Of a stretch of 64,000 nt of DNA, positions 21,981 to 23,185 are shown in pieces. A program made the position numbers and the translations under genes. The notes below the pieces were generated by a model. The model made no database searches, was not told the DNA's origin, and saw only the letters and a program-made list of their open reading frames with translations. Within the stretch, counting starts at the first letter, position 1. Every line of letters begins with the position of its first letter. This DNA comes from Buchnera aphidicola (Diuraphis noxia) (lineage in GTDB: Bacteria; Pseudomonadota; Gammaproteobacteria; Enterobacterales; Enterobacteriaceae): contig NZ_CP013259.1 in NCBI RefSeq assembly GCF_001700895.1, forward strand, positions 372,001 through 436,000. The letters run 5' to 3'.

Positions 21981-22172
21981 CGATGTATAAACTTTTTTTA
22001 AAAAATATAACATAAATAAAAAAGATATTAATTTTCTAGTAAAATAATATTTTTTAATCGTATAAATTATATGCAATACTGAAAATATTCTAACTAATAT
22101 CATTTTTATAGTTTTTTAAATTTTTATTATAAGTATTAATTTTAATCGACTCTGAATTAAATAGGAATTATA

Positions 22173-23185
22173 ATGTTTTATTATTTCATTCGTAAACTAT
22201 TATTTTTAATTGATCCCGAAAAATCACATACTTTGACACTAAAATATCTTAATTGTAACAAACTTCAATTTTTAAGAGATTTTTTTTTAAACACAATATT
22301 CCATCAAAAACAATTCAATGTATGGGATTAACGTTTACAAATAAATTAGGAACAGCAGCTGGAATAGATAAAAATGGAGAATATATAAATATTTTATCAC
22401 AAATGGGTTTCGGTTTTATTGAAGTAGGAACCGTCACTCCTTTACCTCAATACGGTAATATTAAACCTAGAATGTTTAGAATTATTTCTAAAGAAGCGAT
22501 TATTAATAGAATGGGATTTAATAATTTAGGTATTGATAATTTAATAAAAAACATAAAAAAATCTAAGTTTGAAGGAATTATAGGTGTAAATATTGGAAAA
22601 AATAAAGACACCACTATCCAGAATGCCATTAATGATTATTTAATATGCATAGAAAAAATTTATATTTATGCAAGTTACATTGCTATAAATATTTCGTCTC
22701 CTAATACTGTTTCTTTAAGAGAATTACAACATGGAATTATTTTTGAGAACTTATTGTATAAAATAAAAACAAAACAAAATGAATTATATAATAAATATTT
22801 AAAATATGTACCAATAGTAATTAAAATTTCACCAGATCTTTCAAAAAAAGAGTTATTTCAGATTTCGCAAAAATTAATTCAATATGAAATCGATGGAATC
22901 ATTGCTACAAATACAACATTAGATCATTCATCAATACTTAATTTAAAATATAGTTTTGAAGAAGGTGGATTAAGCGGTTTACCTTTACAAAAAAAAAGTA
23001 CTGATATAATTTTAATATTATCTGAGTATTTAAAAAAAAAGATCCCTATTATTGGAGTAGGAGGGATTAATTCAGTGAATGCAGCAAAAGAAAAAATTAA
23101 ATCAGGAGCAACTTTAATACAAATGTATTCTGGATTAATATATCATGGTCCTAAACTTATTAGAAACATCATTAAATCTGTATAA
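22173..23185 (+). CDS. pyrD: Dihydroorotate dehydrogenase (class 2) with a T9 frameshift
   Basis: PyrD oxidises dihydroorotate to orotate at the membrane using quinone, in pyrimidine synthesis. From ATG 22173 (AGG at 22163-22165) the frame reads [20 protein letters not shown], the expected class 2 N-terminal membrane segment, up to a run of nine T at 22280-22288. After the run the family sequence continues in another frame ([20 protein letters not shown]). Adding one T to the run restores a 337-residue protein, against 336 in E. coli. The rest is intact: [16 protein letters not shown] with the catalytic Ser, GVGGINS. Either RNA polymerase slippage restores it, or it starts at ATG 22322 without the membrane segment, or the T count is a sequence error. 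Confidence 0.93.

Follow-up and report, generated by a model that had tools for sequence, protein, structure and literature searches.

Opinion is divided on whether a homopolymer frameshift in a reduced genome marks a dying gene or one that is mended in expression, and the pyrD gene of Buchnera aphidicola (Diuraphis noxia) raises this question. The gene lies in the window, the whole stretch of 64,000 nucleotides that was analyzed (positions 372001-436000 of the 636,266-base chromosome), where its frame runs from an ATG at 22173 to nine T at 22280-22288 and the family sequence then continues one frame off to 23185.

The pyrD locus and its reading frames

Two open reading frames of the window cover pyrD. 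The upstream one (22173-22331, 52 amino acids) holds the PyrD start, and the downstream one, from an internal ATG at 22322 to a stop at 23183-23185, encodes 287 amino acids without an internal stop. The two ATG codons are spaced by 149 nt, which leaves pyrD one base short. By arithmetic, one added base gives 50 + 287 = 337 codons, while PDB chain 1f76_A, which we take to be the E. coli chain, has 336 residues. The 52-residue upstream frame matches positions 1-43 of the NCBIfam model NF003644 (E 1.2e-5), and the downstream frame matches positions 50-335 of 336 (471 bits, with a cut-off of 418), as well as positions 8-286 of 291 of the Pfam family DHO_dh (238 bits); the in-frame pyrD of a relative, G003, covers NF003644 from 1 to 336. 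By these family matches, the two pieces together are predicted to make up a class 2 (quinone) dihydroorotate dehydrogenase PyrD, its N-terminal extension included. The preliminary description of this DNA had stated that pyrD is split by a one-base deficit at the T9 run, that one extra T would give 337 residues and that the remainder of the gene is undamaged, and the analysis bears out each of these statements. The features of the locus are as follows (the eight split copies are described in the next section).

22163..22166, plus strand: Shine-Dalgarno-like AGGA ahead of ATG 22173 (sequence; AGGA in seven of the eight split copies, GAGG in G002)
22173..22279, plus strand: upstream part of pyrD, predicted N-terminal segment of class 2 dihydroorotate dehydrogenase (NF003644 positions 1-43; omega)
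22280..22288, plus strand: T9 run, site of the frame change, one base short (sequence, spacing)
22280-22286, plus strand: in-phase X XXY YYZ heptamer, U UUU UUU (sequence)
22283-22289, plus strand: overlapping in-phase X XXY YYZ heptamer, U UUU UUA (sequence)
22286-22292, plus strand: overlapping in-phase X XXY YYZ heptamer, U UUA AAC (sequence)
22298..22321, plus strand: eight codons (IPSKTIQC) from the run to the internal ATG, conserved in the downstream frame (omega of 0.164 on the split tips)
22329..22331, plus strand: TAA closing the upstream frame if unshifted, giving the 52-residue product (list of open reading frames)
22322..23185, plus strand: downstream part of pyrD, 287 open codons, predicted catalytic domain (NF003644, DHO_dh, omega)

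Distribution of the deficit among Buchnera genomes

Matches to pyrD were found in 33 of 36 Buchnera genomes, and the start of the gene was readable in 32 of them (none was found in G019). A comparison with other Buchnera strains, which the preliminary description had proposed, shows that the deficit recurs: the 149-nt spacing is present in 8 of the 32 readable copies, namely in the window genome (G000), G007 and G004 with T9 and in G029, G021, G011, G012 and G002 with T10, so that seven other genomes share it at the homologous run. The remaining copies are in frame, with a spacing of 147 in 20 and of 150 in 4, and the opposite shift (a spacing of 148 or 151) was found in none of the 32. The downstream part consists of 287 open codons in all eight split copies, none of which has a second lesion there.

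All split copies fall inside a single clade of 16 genomes, interspersed with in-frame members, in a tree of 33 genomes reconstructed from 11 neighbouring proteins (4445 columns), in which the nodes of the A. pisum group are weak (39-73%) and rerooting may have shifted the support values. Close relatives differ in the length of the run: G003 (T10, spacing 150, in frame) stands beside G007 and G000 (T9, spacing 149), and G032 (T11, spacing 150, in frame) beside G011 (T10, spacing 149), the run of the in-frame member being one T longer each time. By the Fitch count, the split and in-frame states of the 20 tips need a minimum of 7 changes and do not cluster (shuffled mean 5.9), and our claim of independent events is limited to this minimum. 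Since the state flips so often, each deficit could be young.

The spacing tracks the length of the T run in 14 of the 17 copies whose run starts at gene base 104 (T8/147, T10/149, T11/150) or 107 (T7/147, T9/149, T10/150), the exceptions being G028, G030 and G034. Because the spacing follows the T length, the value of 148, which was never observed, falls between two observed states. A functionless, drifting gene should show both 148 and 149, whereas only 149 was observed (8 times, versus 0 of 32), and both proposed repairs, an inserted RNA base and a -1 ribosomal slip, would restore the frame from 149 but not from 148. No probability is given for this contrast, as the split copies are related.

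The gene is unmatched (G014, G017, G020) or broken (G005, G016, G019, G028) in 7 of the 36 genomes, and is hence dispensable in part of the genus. The broken copies (L111, L112, L113 and L030, respectively) have their lesion elsewhere in the gene. At the T run itself, G005, G016 and G028 are in frame, so that the loss of pyrD in these genomes began elsewhere.

Selection on the split copies

Selection was estimated with a codon model on 20 genomes (the clade of 16 plus G001, G008, G010 and G024), in which the branch-length proportions, kappa and codon frequencies were taken from the downstream part and the eight split tips had a separate omega. The values are rough, because the tip branches, at 0.4-5.6 neutral substitutions per codon, are long and near saturation. 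Omega on the split tips versus the other branches is 0.113 versus 0.159 in the upstream part (first 33 codons), 0.164 versus 0.142 in the junction (8 codons, read in the downstream frame) and 0.068 versus 0.067 in the downstream part. An omega of 1 is rejected on the split tips in all three parts (2dlnL of 86 upstream, 16 in the junction and 381 downstream), and the tip of the window genome by itself gives 0.13 upstream (2dlnL of 23 against 1) and 0.20 in the junction (2dlnL of 4.5). Purifying selection therefore acts on both sides of the run in the split copies, at a level close to that of the intact copies.

The junction is the most telling stretch, since its codons would be non-coding if the start were at 22322, yet they are conserved. 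They bear on the possibility that the cell makes a truncated enzyme from the internal ATG, devoid of the N-terminal membrane and quinone-tunnel segment, for which it can be said that the downstream frame by itself is a near-complete DHO_dh domain (see above). We regard such an enzyme as extremely improbable: it would need neither the start signal nor the upstream codons nor the junction codons, all of which are conserved, and AGGA, GGAG or GAGG is absent from the 18 bases before the internal ATG in all eight split copies. Of the fallback start at 22322 named in the preliminary description, the part that stands is that this ATG opens a 287-codon frame, while the missing Shine-Dalgarno-like motif speaks against its use.

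The extent to which the split tips could have evolved neutrally differs between the parts of the gene. The downstream omega of the split tips rises to at most about 0.085 when branch lengths are refitted, so that about 2% of the split tip length was possibly neutral; the upstream parts are short and allow an omega of up to nearly 0.2 versus 0.156, hence a larger neutral share. A short, recent neutral period is invisible to this test. As a check of power, we examined two pyrD copies that had decayed at other sites of the gene, and relaxed selection was visible in only one of them (omega of 0.46 in G028 and 0.025 in G016, versus 0.078 in the rest). Signs of a pseudogene, i.e. relaxed selection or further lesions, were not seen in the split pyrD copies, by a test that picked out one of the two decayed tips. 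A long-dead gene does not explain the conserved flanks of the split pyrD, and the earlier statement that pyrD is not an old pseudogene is strengthened by the sharing of the deficit among 8 of 32 genomes and by purifying selection on both sides. Two marks of slippage-rescued genes were found: a single indel in an A/T run of about nine or more with the remainder of pyrD intact, and purifying selection on either side of the run in the frameshifted copies.

Homopolymer runs around pyrD

As a background, we scanned the neighbourhood of pyrD (about 80 kb) in 20 genomes, namely the clade of 16 plus G001, G010, G018 and G024. The scan comprised 67 gene families in 1340 copies, with 1016 A/T runs of 9 or more, 108 of them of T. 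Among T runs of at least 9, the run is split in 8 of 10 copies at the pyrD site, versus none of 98 flagged elsewhere (Fisher 1.3e-10, a test that treats related copies as independent). Nine T runs reach a length of at least 10, and seven of these are at the pyrD site. Away from the pyrD and fabD sites, 4 of 988 runs of length 9-11 are split, runs being assigned by their nearness to a frame change. Runs of at least 12 A coincide with frame changes in 5 of 8 cases. Within the 79.6 kb analyzed in the window genome, which include the whole window, pyrD is the sole flagged family of 67. The BLAST-based frameshift scan detected three of the eight known pyrD splits, the short upstream pieces of the others being below the cut-off, and an end-extension step recovered these five; short terminal frameshifts in other genes may thus stay under-counted. 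Frame changes that need one more base outnumber those that need one fewer by 20 to 4 in the same 80 kb of 20 genomes, a tendency only, as the cases are non-independent and trmD of G012 is counted twice. Left outside the counts were an rlmL-like frame change in G003 without a homopolymer at the site, a mismatch at the end of family G001_68 in genome G024, without a run, and 15 of 82 ORF families, dropped as antisense, partial or duplicate or, in the case of G002_76, by a mistaken choice.

Homopolymers are prone to sequencing error, and the deficit could in principle be an error of sequencing or assembly. We hold this to be very improbable, given that the identical deficit occurs in eight different genomes and that the 98 other T runs of the 20 genomes are unflagged.

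The same background bears on a recent inactivation, in which replication slippage would hit the pyrD run so often that half of the clade happened to be caught in an unrescued state, either transient or dying. Long A/T runs do flip, as the runs of 12 or more A illustrate; split and intact states are intermingled on the tree; pyrD is lost in some genomes; and such shifts are commonly read as recent inactivations in the literature (the available part of PMC3164680). Against it stand the lack of any flagged split at the other 98 T runs, the single direction of all eight pyrD splits, the lack of a second downstream lesion in any of them, and an omega that leaves about 2% of neutral time on the split tips. 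On balance we judge unrescued inactivation to be unlikely.

Several other genes of this neighbourhood also have homopolymer frameshifts. The fabD gene has its frame broken close to a run of A10-A12 in 8 of the 20 genomes (G002, G006, G009, G011, G012, G029, G032 and G034; about 18.2 kb into each of L151, L152, L155, L156, L158, L159, L160 and L164), six of these copies needing one more base and two one fewer, and it is in frame in the window genome. Its split tips have an omega of about 0.10 before the run and about 0.08 after it (19 genomes; in three rows of the alignment a single stop codon close to the end was treated as missing), so both halves are under purifying selection. One more base is needed at a homopolymer in a trmD-like gene of G011, G012 and G032 (L198, L200 and L195), the G012 copy having a frame change also at the gene end, and at a single site in an rluC-like gene of G003 (L153) and a murA-like gene of G002 (L204). 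Single A9 frameshifts needing one base fewer were found in a nusA-like gene of G027 (L183) and a glmM-like gene of G018 (L188). All six names (fabD, trmD, rluC, murA, nusA and glmM) are presumed, those of trmD, rluC and murA from protein starts.

The gene that we presume to be pyrB was rejected as a further candidate. The ORF lists split it in 9 of the 20 genomes, an artefact of their ATG requirement, and a frame change was found in none of the 20. The window copy (about 34.0-34.9 kb) starts with TTG, and ATG-only lists shorten it.

Possible routes of frame repair

Taken as a whole, the sequence evidence makes it somewhat probable that pyrD still works as a gene and that RNA polymerase restores its frame in expression, by inserting a U at the T run. 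The polymerase would slip on the run and add a U in a fraction of the transcripts (T9 to U10), from which full-length PyrD would be made, and unslipped transcripts would give the 52-residue peptide. In DNA the run presumably grows and shrinks easily, and its -1 state may be tolerated because a single inserted base repairs that state. The direction of the deficit, the length of the run and the type of base fit RNA polymerase slippage. The runs of only T9 in three of the eight split copies, the window included, count against it.

Published data on Buchnera transcripts point both ways. We take the source of the first range given below to be Tamas 2008. Slippage at long poly(A) in frameshifted genes of aphid and ant symbionts is described as yielding 12-50% corrected transcripts (PMC5009743, available part). 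Of 157 transcription insertions in Buchnera, 151 are in homopolymer runs, all of A or T, and they rise in frequency with run length (PMC5574713, available part). The same transcriptome-wide indel survey, as far as its available text goes, found no transcription error that restores a frame (PMC5574713), which would count against slippage or may reflect limited depth.

The frame could also be mended by the ribosome, through a -1 slip on the U run from the upstream into the downstream frame, and by direction such a slip fits equally well. A -1 slip repairs a -1 deficit, which is the deficit of all eight copies, and all eight have U UUU UUU in phase for it; U UUU UUA is present as well in the three T9 copies, and U UUA AAC in the window copy. 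The last heptamer is found in the window copy only among the eight, however, and no evident stimulator was seen: folding of the 75 nt that start at 22286 is no better than that of shuffled sequences (z of -0.93, for the window copy and without pseudoknots), and the AGAGA just 5' of the run is not conserved in G004 and the T10 copies, five in number. This route seems fairly unlikely to us, and we prefer transcriptional slippage on the ground that it is documented in Buchnera. The slippage rescue suggested in the preliminary description thus fares differently in its two parts: rescue in general is supported by the shared deficit and by selection, while the RNA polymerase route in particular is only a candidate, as all eight copies also have U UUU UUU in phase for a ribosomal slip and the available part of the survey (PMC5574713) reports no restored frame.

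One may also speculate that the T run is a kept control of expression. The one-base-short state would then be favoured and would set PyrD output through slipped transcripts or ribosomes, and single-base changes would take lineages from full expression (T10 or T11 in frame) to throttled expression (T9 or T10 split) and back, while the state that requires a deletion would be avoided. We consider such a control quite unlikely.

Relation to known frameshifts and implications

Poly(A)-tract frameshifts in Buchnera and Blochmannia are reportedly rescued by transcriptional slippage (Tamas et al. 2008), and Wernegreen, Kauppinen and Degnan (2010) are said to have described ancient homopolymer frameshifts kept by selection. 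As far as the available accounts of these systems go, pyrD resembles the former in being a gene of an AT-rich insect symbiont with a single indel in a long A/T run and an otherwise intact sequence. It differs from them in having poly(T) on the coding strand, in being a pyrimidine gene, in its deficit in eight genomes and in being known here from sequence. With the ancient frameshifts, on the same partial accounts, it shares a frameshift without detectable gene decay; those are fixed, whereas the state of pyrD flips between close relatives. Recoding of dnaX involves transcriptional slippage on a run of nine and, in E. coli, a -1 ribosomal shift. The shift site is likewise a run of nine identical bases in pyrD (for the run of nine, PMC5009743, available part); dnaX gives two useful products, whereas only the shifted product of pyrD looks useful.

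Within the same aphid group, murF of Aphidinae Buchnera is comparable to pyrD in its recurrent homopolymer frameshifts: according to the available part of Degnan et al. 2011 (PMC3164680), 11 homopolymeric frameshifts are present in A. pisum Tokyo and 10 in A. kondoi, and murF is recurrently hit. That part of the paper names pyrD only as deleted in Uroleucon, and the frameshift may already be in its Table S3. A paper about a pyrD frameshift was not found among the matches listed in the open-licence literature (titles and starts of abstracts). The kind of frameshift is therefore already known, and pyrD appears from its sequence to be a strong member of it, well supported by the comparison of genomes and new or at least unhighlighted in the literature searched.

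The present finding bears on a conflict in what is reported for Buchnera, as Tamas 2008 is cited for corrected transcripts and the survey of PMC5574713, in its available part, detected none that restores a frame. pyrD offers a clean test, with a deficit shared by eight genomes, a conserved stretch that encodes protein only when the frame is repaired, and a direction predicted by both routes. In-frame natural controls are at hand in G003 beside G007 and G000, and in G032 beside G011. For metabolic reconstructions of Buchnera the finding is a caution: genes split in this manner should not readily be taken for pseudogenes.
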